The position numbers and the translations under genes are program-made. 52,476 nucleotides of DNA from an uncultured bacterium (GTDB lineage: Bacteria > Cyanobacteriota > Vampirovibrionia > Gastranaerophilales > Gastranaerophilaceae). The stretch lies in the NCBI GenBank assembly GCA_946622415.1, contig CAMOPX010000012.1:1-52476 (forward strand), written 5' to 3'. The notes below the pieces were generated by a model. That model made no database searches and was not told the DNA's origin. It saw only the letters and a program-made list of their open reading frames with translations. Shown here in pieces: positions 1 through 6,209 of this stretch. Positions within the stretch are counted from its first letter, which is position 1, and each line of letters starts with the position of its first letter.

Positions 1-513
1 CAAATGCTAATCAAAAATTCTACAGTAAACGGCGCAAACGCAGTTCTTGCAGAATCTACAAAAGGTAAAGCAATGGTTCAAAAATCAAAACTTAATTCAT
101 CAAAAGGCAGCGTAACAGTAAAATCTGATGTATCAACTGCTCAAGTATATGATAGCTCCGCAATCAAAGCAGCAACTACAGCTAATGTAAACGGTAAAAC
201 AGCAAACGTGTTAAATTCAAACGCAGAAGCTAAAAACATTAACGTAACCGGTTCAAAGAACACTGAAGTTCTTTCATCAAAACTATCTGCTGGTGACAAA
301 ATAGTATTAAATTCAACATCAGATAGAACATATGTAAAAGGTTCTACTCTTACATCCAAAAATTCAAATGTTCAAGTAAAATCCGGCAAAAATACATATG
401 TTTACGATTCAACCGTTAAAGGAAAATCAAAAACAGCTATTGCAGGAAAAACAACAGATGTAAGAAATTCAACGATTGACGGAACAAAAATCAAAAGCAA
501 ACAAACAAAATAA
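1..513 (+). CDS. C-terminal part of a repetitive solenoid-like protein (partial)
   Basis: The reading frame is open from the first base (the codon before the first ATG at 4 is CAA), so this is probably the end of a longer gene whose start lies outside the window. The visible 170 residues are rich in Ser, Thr, Asn, Lys and Val. They fall into about seven imperfect repeats of roughly 21 residues with the pattern V-x-x-S followed by a second V about ten residues later, for example AQVYDSS, NVLNSN, EVLSSK, TYVKGST, TYVYDST, TDVRNST. This regular alternation suggests a right-handed beta-solenoid, as in many secreted or surface proteins. There is almost no Cys, Trp or charged cluster, and no anchor or sorting domain at the C-terminus. 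Function is unknown, and export is inferred only from composition. Confidence 0.6.
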   Translation, partial: QMLIKNSTVNGANAVLAESTKGKAMVQKSKLNSSKGSVTVKSDVSTAQVYDSSAIKAATTANVNGKTANVLNSNAEAKNINVTGSKNTEVLSSKLSAGDKIVLNSTSDRTYVKGSTLTSKNSNVQVKSGKNTYVYDSTVKGKSKTAIAGKTTDVRNSTIDGTKIKSKQTK

Positions 514-744: not shown

Positions 745-1971
745 TTATATTATGTTTCCGTCTTTTCTTACTATAAATATATACTTTTCTTTGATATCTT
801 TCGTTAAAAGTGAAGATAGATTTATTAAATTTTTATATTTTTTTGAGTATATAAAATCTGAATTTTGCATATTTTTTAATATAATTTTTATTCTTTTTGA
901 ATCTTCAAAATAATAATCGCAAAATAAACCCCCGCTATTTGCCAAAATGCTTTCTGTTAATTCTCTGTTGTTTAAAAAATAACTGTTTAAATCACTTTGA
1001 TTATATTTATAGCTGATTATTTTTTCTTTTTTTGATGAAATATTTATGAAATGTTTGTTTAGATTCTTTGCTTCAATAACTTCATATTTAAGGGGTAAAT
1101 TGTTTTTATTTAACTCGTTTTTGATTAAAAAATTAAACAGCACATTCAGAATAAAATTTTTCTTTTTTATACCAAATAATATTGCTTCTCTATTTTTATA
1201 AATTAATGAATAATTATAAATCTGAGATTTTTCAACATAGAATATATTTCCTAATGTGTTAGAGTAATTTTTATCCTGATAATAAAAACTGATTTTTTTT
1301 AAGTCTTCTATGTTTTTTATATTAGAGGTGCAGTTTAAAATACGATTGCTATTTGACAACGTTGTATTTTGGTTTATATTGTTTTCTTTGATAATATTTT
1401 TTATATCGGACGGATTCAGGTTATAGGTTAATAAATCGGAATCTTTAAAATAAATATAATTTAGTGTTTCAAAGTTAAAATCATAAATTTTATCAATAAA
1501 ACCTAATTTTGATAATTTATCAAATGTGATTTTTGAATATTTAATTAAATCCTCATTTATTTTTTTATCATTGAAAATTAAAAGAAAATAATCGTATTTA
1601 TTTTGAAATTCAATATCAAAATCAATTTCTGGGTTTGAATTTGTTTTGGATATAAAATCATCAAGAAGAAATTTTATTTTTTGAATTTCTTTTGTTTTGT
1701 CTAAAACAAAACCAAATTTTATATAAATATCACAATAATTAAAAGAAGAAATACTATAAACGGTTTTTATTTTTTTTGTTTGTAATATTTTTTCGGATAA
1801 ATTTTTTCCATAAACCCTATCCAGAAATTCACAATCAAAATTATTTTCTCGGATTGAAATTTTTATGTCAAAATTGTCTTTTAGATTAAACCAATTTAAA
1901 AATAAAAATATAAATAATGCTAAAAACAAAATTATTTTATATTTTGATTTTTTTATTTTGTTTATTATCAT
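745..1971 (-). CDS. RND efflux permease-like periplasmic protein lacking the membrane domain
   Basis: 408 residues with a single N-terminal membrane helix (about 14-28) and then a long periplasmic region. Its layout follows the porter domain of RND pumps. Residues about 45-105 match the PN1 pattern, a 'pairs of helices then gv-xx-i-S-x-S' stretch (KIKTVYSISSFNYC) followed by an f-x-x-g-x-x-x-x-x-a segment. About 140-200 match the strand 'GFIDKIYDF' and the helix 'YNLNPSDIKNIIKENN', equivalent to the ygls-xx-dv-xx-al-xx-n motif. About 340-405 resemble the end of the C-terminal porter half (GG, then LINLSSLL and a final R-x-DG). The helices TM2-TM12 of a normal pump of about 1,040 residues are absent. 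The start overlaps the upstream HlyD-type gene by 35 bases and has a good AGAGG site. The frame is intact, so this is not an obvious pseudogene. Family assignment comes from pattern reading, not a search; transport by this protein alone is unlikely. Confidence 0.55.
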   Translation of the reverse strand: MIINKIKKSKYKIILFLALFIFLFLNWFNLKDNFDIKISIRENNFDCEFLDRVYGKNLSEKILQTKKIKTVYSISSFNYCDIYIKFGFVLDKTKEIQKIKFLLDDFISKTNSNPEIDFDIEFQNKYDYFLLIFNDKKINEDLIKYSKITFDKLSKLGFIDKIYDFNFETLNYIYFKDSDLLTYNLNPSDIKNIIKENNINQNTTLSNSNRILNCTSNIKNIEDLKKISFYYQDKNYSNTLGNIFYVEKSQIYNYSLIYKNREAILFGIKKKNFILNVLFNFLIKNELNKNNLPLKYEVIEAKNLNKHFINISSKKEKIISYKYNQSDLNSYFLNNRELTESILANSGGLFCDYYFEDSKRIKIILKNMQNSDFIYSKKYKNLINLSSLLTKDIKEKYIFIVRKDGNII

Positions 1972-2971
1972 TCCATCCTCTTAAAATAATATAATCTCCG
2001 ATTTTTAATCCGAAAGTTACTTCTTGAAAATCGTCTTTAATTTTATCCGTCAAAACCTCTGCTTTTCTTATTGTTCCTATATTTTCTTTAATATCTTCTA
2101 TTTTATAAACATATTTTTTGTTGTTTTCTTTAATGATTGCATCAATAGGTACTAAAACCTTGTCTTTATTAATATTTAAAATCTCCACATCCAAATTCAT
2201 ACCCTCTTTTAAATCAGGATAAAATTTATCAAGTAATATTTTAACGGCATAACCCCCTGTATTGTTGCTCGATTGCGAAATATGGGAAATTTTCCCCATA
2301 TACTTAATGTTGTTTTTACTTAAAACAACATTATCATTTAGATGAAGCTCATTTATGATATTGTTTTCAACCATAATTTCTACCTGAGTTTTAGATGAAC
2401 CTATGATAGAAATAACGGGTTTGCCGGAAGAAGCAAATTCTCCTATTTCTCCTGTTTTTTCATATACAAATCCGTCATAGGGTGAAAATAAAGTTGCATA
2501 CTGTATTTGCTTATTGGAATAATTCAGTTTTTCTTTTTGCAGGCTTATTTCTTTTAATCTTGCTGAAGTTTCATATCCCGCTGTTTCCCAGTCATTATCG
2601 GATATTGCACCTGCATTATGCAAAATTGTGATTCTGTCATAATAGCTTTTTGATTGTTTATATTTAATTTCCAATTCCGATAAAAGTGCGCTTTCTTCGT
2701 TTCTTTTTATTCTGTATAGCGTATCATCGATTTTTGCCAAAACTTGCCCTTTCTTGACAAAATCCCCTCTTGCTAAAGGGCTGTACGTTATTATTCCGCT
2801 TTCCTGAAAAGATAATGTTGATACATACTGAAATTTAACTGTTCCCGTATAAATCGTTTTGGGTGAATGAATAATTTTATATATTTCAGGGGTTTCTTCC
2901 GTTATTTTATTAACGCAGCCCGATATAACAACAAGACTAAAAAGCAAAAATATAAGTGCTAAAGCTCTCAT
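1937..2971 (-). CDS. HlyD/AcrA-family membrane fusion lipoprotein
   Basis: 344 residues. A lipoprotein signal with the lipobox ISGC (Cys19) is followed by the usual order of a periplasmic adaptor: a lipoyl half (about 50-80, with GDFVKKGQVLAKID), a helical hairpin (about 85-150), the second lipoyl half (SPYDGFVYEKTGEIGEFAS), and then a beta-barrel and membrane-proximal domain (about 190-330). Such proteins link an inner-membrane pump to an outer-membrane channel. Here the only pump-like partner is the overlapping downstream gene, which lacks a channel-forming membrane domain. No TolC-like gene is visible nearby. It is the fourth gene of an operon that starts with a histidine kinase and response regulator, so expression is probably tied to an envelope signal. 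Confidence 0.85.
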   Translation of the reverse strand: MRALALIFLLFSLVVISGCVNKITEETPEIYKIIHSPKTIYTGTVKFQYVSTLSFQESGIITYSPLARGDFVKKGQVLAKIDDTLYRIKRNEESALLSELEIKYKQSKSYYDRITILHNAGAISDNDWETAGYETSARLKEISLQKEKLNYSNKQIQYATLFSPYDGFVYEKTGEIGEFASSGKPVISIIGSSKTQVEIMVENNIINELHLNDNVVLSKNNIKYMGKISHISQSSNNTGGYAVKILLDKFYPDLKEGMNLDVEILNINKDKVLVPIDAIIKENNKKYVYKIEDIKENIGTIRKAEVLTDKIKDDFQEVTFGLKIGDYIILRGWNDNKQNKKIKI

Positions 2972-3969: not shown

Positions 3970-4653
3970 TTATTGCACCAGTCCTTCTTTTAGGGCAATA
4001 ATCGCAGCTTTTGTTCTATCTTTTAAATATAATTTTTGTAAAATGCTATGCACATGAGCTTTTGTTGTTGACATTGCAACCACCAATTTTTCCGAGATTT
4101 CCTGATTGGATAAACCGTCAACAATCAAAGATAAAACTTCTAATTCTTTTTTTGTAAGTCCGTATTTTTTGTTTGCTTCCTTTTGGCTTTGTAGTTTTGT
4201 GTTGTCTTGAATTTCATTTTCATGCTGAATATTTGACAACACTACTCTTGCGATAGCAGAATCAATCCATGCGCTGTGGTCACGCACGGTATTTATTGCA
4301 TTAATCAGATTTTGCGCACTTGTGCCTTTCATAATGTATCCGTCGGCACCGGCTTTAAATGCTGCAAAAATATCTTCTTTGCTATCTCTTGATGTGAACA
4401 TTAAAATAGAACAATCCAGTTTTAATTCTTCTTTAATTTTCTTAGTCGCCGTGATTCCGTCGATTTTTGGCAATCCGATATCCATAAGAATAACATCGGG
4501 ATTGTATTCTTGTGCCATAATAATTGCTTCTTGTCCGTCTGTTGCTTCTGCCACAAGATTGAGATTGGGAATGGTTTTTATTGTCATAGAAAGTCCCATT
4601 CGTGTAAATTCGTGGTCTTCCACAAGTAGTATGTTTATATTTTTTTCTGTCAT
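3970..4653 (-). CDS. NarL/FixJ-type response regulator
   Basis: 227 residues from the ATG at 4653. The frame also allows a TTG 15 bases upstream, but the ATG has an AAGG site at good distance and overlaps the kinase stop as ATGA. The N-terminal receiver domain (about 6-122) has acidic residues ED near 12-13, phospho-acceptor Asp58 in VILMDIGLP, and the switch Thr and Lys in FTS and YIMKG. The C-terminal LuxR-type helix-turn-helix (about 163-225) reads GLTKKELEVLSLIVDGLSN and then EISEKLVVAMSTTKAHVHSI. It is almost certainly phosphorylated by the kinase encoded just upstream. Likely targets include its own operon, but no binding site is identifiable from one locus. Confidence 0.93.
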   Translation of the reverse strand: MTEKNINILLVEDHEFTRMGLSMTIKTIPNLNLVAEATDGQEAIIMAQEYNPDVILMDIGLPKIDGITATKKIKEELKLDCSILMFTSRDSKEDIFAAFKAGADGYIMKGTSAQNLINAINTVRDHSAWIDSAIARVVLSNIQHENEIQDNTKLQSQKEANKKYGLTKKELEVLSLIVDGLSNQEISEKLVVAMSTTKAHVHSILQKLYLKDRTKAAIIALKEGLVQ

Positions 4654-6209
4654 AAAATTACCTTGCAATCATTTATTGAATCTTTTAATTCAAAAGTAAA
4701 TTTTGAACCTTTGTTTATTTTTGAATCAACGTAAATTTTTCCGTTGTGTGCTTCTATAATCTGTCTTGATAAATAAAGACCAAGACCGGTTGAGCTTGAG
4801 CGTTTTTGGTTTGTACCTTGTGAAAATCTGTTGAATAATTTGTTGCAATCGTCTTTTGATAATCCGATACCGTCATCAATTACGTCAAATTTCAAATCTT
4901 TATTGTCTTTATTTATATCTATTTCTATCTTAGAGCTTTCCTGAGAATGTTTAATCGCATTTCCTATTAGATTTGTAATCACCCTTCTTATTTCATTTTT
5001 ATCCGCATTAACAAAAAGCTCGTTTTCGTTGCATTTTATATTCATTTGGATATCATATTTTTGAGCAAGCGGGTTTAACTCTTCTTTGCATTCTTGGGTA
5101 AGTTTTAATATATCAAATTTTGTTTTGCAAAGATACGTTTTTCCTGCTTCATATTTATAAACTTCTAATAATGCGTTGACAAGACCGAGCATATCTTCTG
5201 AGCTTTTTTTCATGGCCTGAAATAAATTACTTTGCTCCGGTGTAATTTCACCTAATGATTTATTTAAAATAAAATCTAATCCGGAAAGTGTTGCAAGGAG
5301 TGGAGTTCTAAGGTCATGGGTTAAAGTTGCAATAAAATCATCTCTCAGACGTTCTGTTTCTTTTTGATACGTTACATCTCTGATTACTGCGATATAGGAT
5401 TTTTCTTTTTCGCTTTCACTTTCGGTTTTTATATGCGCAATGCTGATTTCAACAGGGATTTTTGTATCATGCAAATAATTAATTATATTGTAGTTTCTTA
5501 AAAACAGACTTTCTTTTTTTGATAAATCCGATTTTGAAAATTGTTTCTTTTCCGAAAAAGCCAAATCAAAGAGATTTGTTGAAATTATATTTTCTTTTTC
5601 TTGTCCGAAAAGTCTTATACCCGCTTCGTTTATATTTGTTATTAAAAGATTTTCATTTAATACCACAATGCCGTCGGCACAACTTGAAATAACTGCGCTC
5701 AACTTCATATTACTGTCGGATAATTCTTTAGTTCTTTGTTGAACTTTGTGTTCAAGTGTTTTTGAATAGTTTTCAAGTTTGTTGTTTGCTGCTTCAAGCT
5801 CTGCGATTTTTTTGTTGAGTTCTTTTTTTAACCTTGTTTGGGTAAGTGCGTTTTTTATATTGATTATTAGATTTGTATTGTCCCAAGGCTTTTCTATGTA
5901 TTTAAATATTCCTATTTCGTTTATCGCGCGGATAGCATTTTCTTTATCGGCATAGCCGGTTAAAAGTATTGTTGAAACTTCATGCTGAAGTTTTTTTGCT
6001 TCCGTTAAAAAATCAATGCCGTTCATTTCGGGCATTATAAAATCGCTGATAATTAAATCCACTTCTTCATTTTTTAAAAAAATTAACGCTTCATTTGGGT
6101 TATTGTATGTGTACACATTAGAAAACCCCTCTAGTCCAAGGAGCATTGATAATGTTTTGGTGACCATGGCTTCGTCATCAACTATGACTATTTTACCCAA
6201 CTTTTCCAT
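4650..6209 (-). CDS. Receiver-PAS sensor histidine kinase
   Basis: 519 residues, no membrane helix, so probably cytoplasmic. An N-terminal receiver domain (about 6-120, Asp56 in IISDFIMPE) is followed by a coiled coil (about 125-165) and a PAS domain (about 170-285). The kinase core has the H-box IATLTHDLRTPLL (His298), N-box NLIGNAIKHS, G1 DDGIGLS and G2 STGLGLYLS. The N-terminal receiver suggests it acts downstream of another kinase or belongs to a phosphorelay. It is the first gene of the minus-strand operon ending at 745 and diverges from the gene at 6348, so 6210-6347 should hold promoters in both directions. Which ligand the PAS domain senses cannot be told. Confidence 0.93.
   Translation of the reverse strand: MEKLGKIVIVDDEAMVTKTLSMLLGLEGFSNVYTYNNPNEALIFLKNEEVDLIISDFIMPEMNGIDFLTEAKKLQHEVSTILLTGYADKENAIRAINEIGIFKYIEKPWDNTNLIINIKNALTQTRLKKELNKKIAELEAANNKLENYSKTLEHKVQQRTKELSDSNMKLSAVISSCADGIVVLNENLLITNINEAGIRLFGQEKENIISTNLFDLAFSEKKQFSKSDLSKKESLFLRNYNIINYLHDTKIPVEISIAHIKTESESEKEKSYIAVIRDVTYQKETERLRDDFIATLTHDLRTPLLATLSGLDFILNKSLGEITPEQSNLFQAMKKSSEDMLGLVNALLEVYKYEAGKTYLCKTKFDILKLTQECKEELNPLAQKYDIQMNIKCNENELFVNADKNEIRRVITNLIGNAIKHSQESSKIEIDINKDNKDLKFDVIDDGIGLSKDDCNKLFNRFSQGTNQKRSSSTGLGLYLSRQIIEAHNGKIYVDSKINKGSKFTFELKDSINDCKVIL

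Follow-up and report, generated by a model that had tools for sequence, protein, structure and literature searches.

Pumps of the resistance-nodulation-division (RND) type are textbook proton-driven transporters, and their periplasmic part is thought to need a membrane motor. SecD/SecF and MMPL proteins, which we take to belong to the same superfamily, presumably keep their membrane helices. The closest described counterpart of the system reported here is AcrBper (PDB 5EN5, 7B8R, and others), an engineered soluble fusion of the two AcrB periplasmic loops, designed by structural biologists so that drugs could be co-crystallized with it. What appears to be a natural version of this construct is encoded in a 52,476-nucleotide stretch of DNA (the window), an entire contig (C12) of the 1.88-Mb, 50-contig genome of an uncultured Gastranaerophilaceae bacterium. 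One of its genes encodes a protein with the porter fold of an RND permease on a single hydrophobic helix, lacking transmembrane helices (TM) 2 to 12, and lies beside a gene for a periplasmic adaptor; we call such proteins TM-less porters. In the titles and abstract openings that we searched, with subscription journals mostly outside the search, no natural TM-less RND porter was described.

According to PMC8277102, from which we took the order and contacts of the subdomains, PN1 lies at the inner face of the RND trimer, neighboring protomers are joined through the DN and DC hairpins, substrates enter between PC1 and PC2, and TM2 is linked to PN2/PC1, as TM8 is to PN1/PC2. Compared with the permeases AcrB, MexB, OqxB, TriC, and MexK (Pfam ACR_tran), TM-less porters have the same PN1-PN2-DN and PC2-DC fold, subdomain order, and adaptor linkage, but no TM2 to TM12 and hence no proton relay; the window copy is also without PC1. 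The window protein proved homologous to the RND periplasmic porter and docking domains of ACR_tran. When members from the window's genus were aligned with full-length RNDs, the match ran from TM1 into PN1, PN2, and DN, skipped TM2-TM7, and stopped before TM8, and all 25 members have one hydrophobic segment in place of the twelve (2 x 6) of a complete permease. AcrBper was the best Foldseek match of both structure models, and in both the construct and the natural family the two porter halves are fused, with TM2-TM7 and all from TM8 on omitted; in a 555-amino-acid (aa) relative, the alignment leaps from AcrB positions ~318-328 to 567-569 and ends ahead of TM8. Unlike this laboratory-made protein, which presumably lacks TM1, members of the natural family retain one helix and have an adaptor gene alongside; the window copy differs further in being without PC1 and most of PC2. 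The segments corresponding to TM4 and TM10-TM11, where we take the proton-relay positions to lie, are absent from the window porter. Given that neither twelve helices nor a proton relay was found, the window protein is, on its sequence, an RND-derived porter and not by itself a working RND permease; with the relay helices gone, it would be unable to use the proton gradient itself. The first-pass annotation, made from the DNA alone, had read the gene as an RND porter with one membrane helix, and both the alignments and the structural match bear this out.

In the window copy PN1, PN2, DN, and DC are each at least 92% present, and the alignment columns of PC1, PC2a, and PC2b are filled to 5%, 21%, and 44%, leaving no PC1/PC2 substrate cleft. 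The earlier annotation was right about a porter running from PN1 into the C-terminal half and did not note that PC1 and most of PC2 are gone. Twenty of the 25 genus members fill at least 91% of the PC1 columns and at least 76% of those of PC2a, and four others (442 to 477 aa) show a milder erosion of PC1 and PC2. Since the porter tree unites these four with support (98/96) and places the window outside them, the erosion probably occurred at least twice. The N-terminal helix would act as a membrane anchor, not a cleaved signal. Subdomain limits in locus L008 were drawn manually, guided by the AcrB alignment and predicted secondary structure, using AcrB boundaries as we take them to be.

The TM-less porter is not a peculiarity of one assembly. 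It is present in 25 of 28 genomes of the window's genus, with the adaptor gene on the same strand and no more than 80 bp away in all 25 loci, a linkage that the first-pass annotation had anticipated; the adaptor also directly precedes the porter in 23 of 23 TM-less loci in named records, largely from the same genomes. Genome profile searches found no porter copy in the other three genomes (G006, G012, and G014), all of which keep Y316, a gene of the surrounding cluster. Neither adaptor nor porter is present at L090 and L097, two loci of the genus whose flanks are long enough to tell, and L158 stops at a contig edge. The open reading frames (ORFs) are unbroken in the 25 genus loci and in five genomes of a second genus, g41 (one cut by a contig end), and with 25 of 28 genus genomes TM-less a recent deletion or assembly error was ruled out. 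Stops within a match were flagged in G008, G027, G007, and the window's second match; by their coordinates these matches extend beyond ORF starts or stops. Full-length forms of the locus (989 to 1,023 aa, 10 to 11 hydrophobic peaks) were found in other genera only (g37, one record of which, L106, bears the name Candidatus Galligastranaerophilus; g41; g45; and g57), with the same adaptor family directly upstream, and no close relative encodes the missing helices in frame.

Across the family, 60 of 383 genomes gave a match: 25 from the window's genus, 8 from g41, and 27 others, whose frames span 969 to 1,087 aa except in G345, where the match is split over two contigs. Four of the nine g41 genomes (G168, G255, G280, and G295) carry TM-less porters of 570 to 573 aa, that of G295 cut at 553 aa by a contig end; three (G141, G163, and G174) carry full-length RNDs of 989 to 1,001 aa; and G296 had no match in the family profile search. 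The remaining one, G241, encodes a strongly diverged TM-less porter of 506 aa beside its own adaptor (L218:7318-8838), at a locus that differs from those of the other g41 genomes and had been missed by a single-query search. A sample of 386 genomes from the phylum, to which the search was confined, gave 45 matches and no TM-less form outside the two genera; the family and phylum searches scored three candidates per genome, and an earlier one five, so misses are possible. Three further candidates were set aside as broken full-length forms and not TM-less ones: G426, whose frames are 510 and 553 aa long; G055, which a contig end cuts; and, going by search rows only, G345, which is spread over two contigs. 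The RND of G426 (L219:3171-6388) lies in two consecutive frames with five hydrophobic peaks each, which could be a natural split or a frameshift.

Selection in relatives of the window copy argues for maintenance. In 14 close pairs of porters from the genus, the ratio of nonsynonymous to synonymous divergence (dN/dS, Nei-Gojobori) was 0.07 to 0.19, and in three g41 pairs it was 0.12 to 0.14; the range for the adaptors of the same pairs (0.05 to 0.26) covers that of the porters. These values are rough, coming from a simple Nei-Gojobori count with synonymous divergence (dS) near or above 1 in most pairs. With the 14 pairs pooled, the lowest subdomain values were those of DC (0.05) and PN1 (0.07) and the highest those of TM1 (0.44) and PC2b (0.28), two subdomains in which the proportion of synonymous differences (pS) is also below that of the others. 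Together with the 25 genomes that hold the gene, these comparisons support a conserved porter and not a fresh product of decay, in line with the earlier suggestion that the protein had been retained.

We also asked how many times the membrane domain was lost. Full-length and TM-less loci of g41 have upstream neighbors in common (genes of 234 and 189 aa in G141, G163, and G174), and the window's genus has its kinase-regulator-Y316 flank in common with the full-length g37 form, in which about five genes lie between Y316 and the adaptor. The adaptor tree (39 rows) unites all g41 rows (100/99), and the approximately unbiased test rejects joining the two TM-less groups (p-AU 0.0004; 0.002 with more rows, in an extended tree without 16 genus rows). 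The porter tree (42 rows) joins the TM-less groups (92/99), as do its N-terminal half (85/99) and C-terminal half (76/90), both built without seven fast rows including the window, and a tree with G241 and without 18 genus rows (49/94). This joining, along with fusion junctions at nearly the same position, is what a single loss followed by transfer between genera would leave, an explanation that we consider doubtful: the adaptor tree and the flanking genes speak against it, a single g41 group is compatible with the porter data (p-AU 0.28, 0.24, 0.41, and 0.33), and the long branches of the porter trees carry a risk of false joining. At least two losses of the membrane domain are thus the better reading of the sequences. 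G241 may represent a third, because its adaptor sits among those of full-length forms; a single g41 TM-less group that includes G241 is not rejected by the adaptor tree (p-AU 0.22).

What might such a protein do? We propose, at somewhat short of an even chance, that the porter is the surviving periplasmic half of a tripartite RND pump whose motor is gone, and that it now acts as an unpowered docking ring to support adaptor and channel. By computation, an RND permease lost TM2-TM7 when the end of PN2 became fused in frame to the start of PC1, and it was shortened ahead of TM8; its N-terminal helix, PN1, PN2, DN, DC, and the neighboring adaptor were retained. The window lineage also lost the substrate-entry cleft, namely PC1 and the greater part of PC2. 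The single helix would hold the porter in the inner membrane, where it may trimerize in an AcrB-like manner through PN1 and the DN/DC hairpins. With such a ring in place, the HlyD-type adaptor could stay assembled and, by way of its RLS tips, attached to a TolC-type channel; the result would be a duct out of the periplasm, passive or gated, or a platform for another transporter. The fold, the loss, the linkage, the selection in relatives, and the adaptor motif are computed results. The ring is inferred from the retention of PN1, DN, and DC, the RLS tip of the adaptor, and the outer-membrane channels in the genome. Throughout the TM-less family the motor has gone, followed at times by parts of the cleft and PC2b, and PN1, DN, and DC are retained. 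The adaptor scores above the TIGR01730 cut-off and carries the RLS motif, which PMC3391258 defines and reports to bind TolC; its R, L, and S are present in 25 of 25 genus adaptors. OEP-family domains match 14 times in the genome: six frames of 442 to 551 aa account for 12 of these, and the remaining two are weak and fall within adaptor frames. That RND pumps repeatedly became motorless, tethered docking rings, in at least two lineages and perhaps three with G241, each shedding every proton-driven helix but retaining trimer core, docking funnel, and adaptor, and that the window line, having shed the substrate cleft as well, is an unpowered trans-envelope duct or scaffold, we offer more tentatively still, as a possibility.

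Several observations weigh against a conserved docking ring. In 3 of the 14 genus pairs, porter dN/dS (0.15 to 0.19) is about twice that of the adaptor (0.06 to 0.09), and the ratios cover relatives only: the window copy shares 23 to 34% identity with its relatives, none of them close. The window porter gene has 19% GC versus 30% for the adaptor gene, and porter genes of the genus (17 to 27%) are lower than their adaptors (26 to 32%) in 25 of 25 loci; this AT-richness is a sign of weaker constraint and counts against a strongly conserved role. Porters also evolve fast (end branches of up to 1.55), three of the 28 genus genomes yielded no copy, and the structure models are of monomers only. An open passive duct could harm the permeability barrier and so would need a gate or closed state, and the genome has several other adaptors, so that the window adaptor could serve elsewhere. 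The same AT-richness, fast evolution, and missing copies, with a graded shortening from 558 to 408 aa within one genus, chiefly in PC1/PC2, are what one would expect of a relic in slow decay, whose motor is lost and whose remainder is being trimmed without present function. We think this improbable, because the ORFs are unbroken in both genera, dN/dS over the 17 close pairs stays within the adaptor range, and the TM-less form exists in a second genus. TM-less porter genes of g41 are also more AT-rich than their loci.

Two other readings would give the porter a partner or a ligand. It might pair with an energized partner, a full-length RND or another inner-membrane transporter, either by forming a hetero-oligomer or by serving as an extension to bring in the adaptor, and adaptors can be common to several pumps. 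RND matches above the cut-off occur in 28 of 28 genus genomes (as one frame of at least 1,077 aa in 26 and as pieces on several contigs in G008 and G026), and a SulP-type gene directly follows the porter or RND gene in G168, G255, G280, and G174. Yet the genome's other RND, which branches very far away in the porter tree, is flanked by an adaptor gene and an outer-membrane gene of its own; in six genus loci checked, there is no gene immediately 3' of the porter with over two hydrophobic peaks; and the SulP gene also lies downstream of the full-length G174 form and is therefore not a replacement motor; we regard such pairing as unlikely. For the same reason, the 9- to 10-TM gene 3' of the g41 porters was rejected as a split-off motor; in L062 it matches Sulfate_transp (1.1e-60) plus STAS. 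This gene follows the adaptor-RND or adaptor-porter pair in L062, L063, L064, and L067, with or without helices in the porter. Genus frames of 436 to 482 aa that match PF00873 at profile positions 327-483 we take to be SecD-like. A sensor, sponge, or decoy, in which the porter binds substrate or sequesters the adaptor and so regulates other pumps, seems to us very unlikely. PMC8617272 has engineered AcrBper still binding drugs, and a kinase and response regulator lie upstream; however, 5 of 25 members, the window included, have lost the binding cleft or show erosion of it, and the kinase module is also found without the porter operon in related genomes.

Returning to the unpowered docking ring, a natural motorless form whose close relatives are under selection would uncouple assembly and gating from the use of energy, and it makes testable what an adaptor, a porter ring, and an outer-membrane channel can accomplish unpowered. 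These gut-bacterial porters beside an adaptor suggest that the pumps were converted into a structural element or a channel part with no power source. They also caution annotators that an ACR_tran match need not mean an efflux pump.

Features of the porter locus, by position in the window (aa, amino acids of the encoded protein)
Feature	Position	Strand	Remark
Terminator-like hairpin 3' of porter stop codon	725..743	both strands listed	consensus match alone
TM-less RND porter, 408 aa	745..1971	-	shortest of 25 genus members
First PC2b strand, ~aa 391-408	748..801	-	protein stops ahead of TM8
DC docking subdomain, ~aa 313-390	802..1035	-	AcrB alignment
Junction, ~aa 303-312	1036..1065	-	TM2-TM7, PC1, and most of PC2a missing
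PN2 (~aa 136-182, 245-302) carrying DN docking insert (~aa 183-244)	1066..1566	-	limits approximate
PN1 subdomain, ~aa 35-135	1567..1869	-	AcrB alignment and model; limits approximate
Lone hydrophobic helix, aa 12-30	1882..1938	-	counterpart of RND TM1; predicted helix aa 2-28
HlyD/RND_mfp periplasmic adaptor, 344 aa	1937..2971	-	TIGR01730 169.4 bits, cut-off 94.9
RLS motif R-x3-L-x6-S of adaptor, hairpin tip, aa 113-124	2600..2635	-	
Y316, 316 aa	3019..3969	-	family unknown; putative signal-like N-terminus
Response regulator	3970..4668	-	older neighbor, probably not dedicated to pump
Hybrid histidine kinase	4650..6209	-	older neighbor, probably not dedicated to pump

In the direction of transcription, the order of the genes is hybrid histidine kinase, response regulator, Y316, adaptor, and porter. 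The Y316 gene ends 47 bp 5' of the adaptor gene start, the adaptor gene overlaps the start of the porter gene by 35 nucleotides, and co-transcription is plausible. The adaptor N-terminus resembles what we take to be a lipobox. At the composition of the porter gene, 408 codons would stay open by chance with a probability of ~5e-15, so the open frame is not a chance one. The 744 bp from the porter to the contig start encode neither the missing helices nor, among the ORFs listed, an energized inner-membrane component; the operon is thus short of a tripartite pump, for which such a component could act from elsewhere.

The earlier claim that the porter is under a two-component system is not supported by the sequences, in which the relation is one of adjacency only. 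In 80 loci retrieved by the kinase, the kinase and regulator are neighbors, mostly with Y316 as well; 37 of these loci have an adaptor-RND or adaptor-porter pair in the stretch read and 43 do not, with contig ends truncating some. Kinase-regulator-Y316 neighbors are missing from the g41 operon in the stretches read. The cluster of kinase, LuxR-type regulator, and Y316 recurs in many Gastranaerophilales loci. At the other end of the locus, window positions 1-513 hold a 170-aa frame that is open at the contig start and weakly matches NosD (E 0.23), and it is probably the end of a longer protein.
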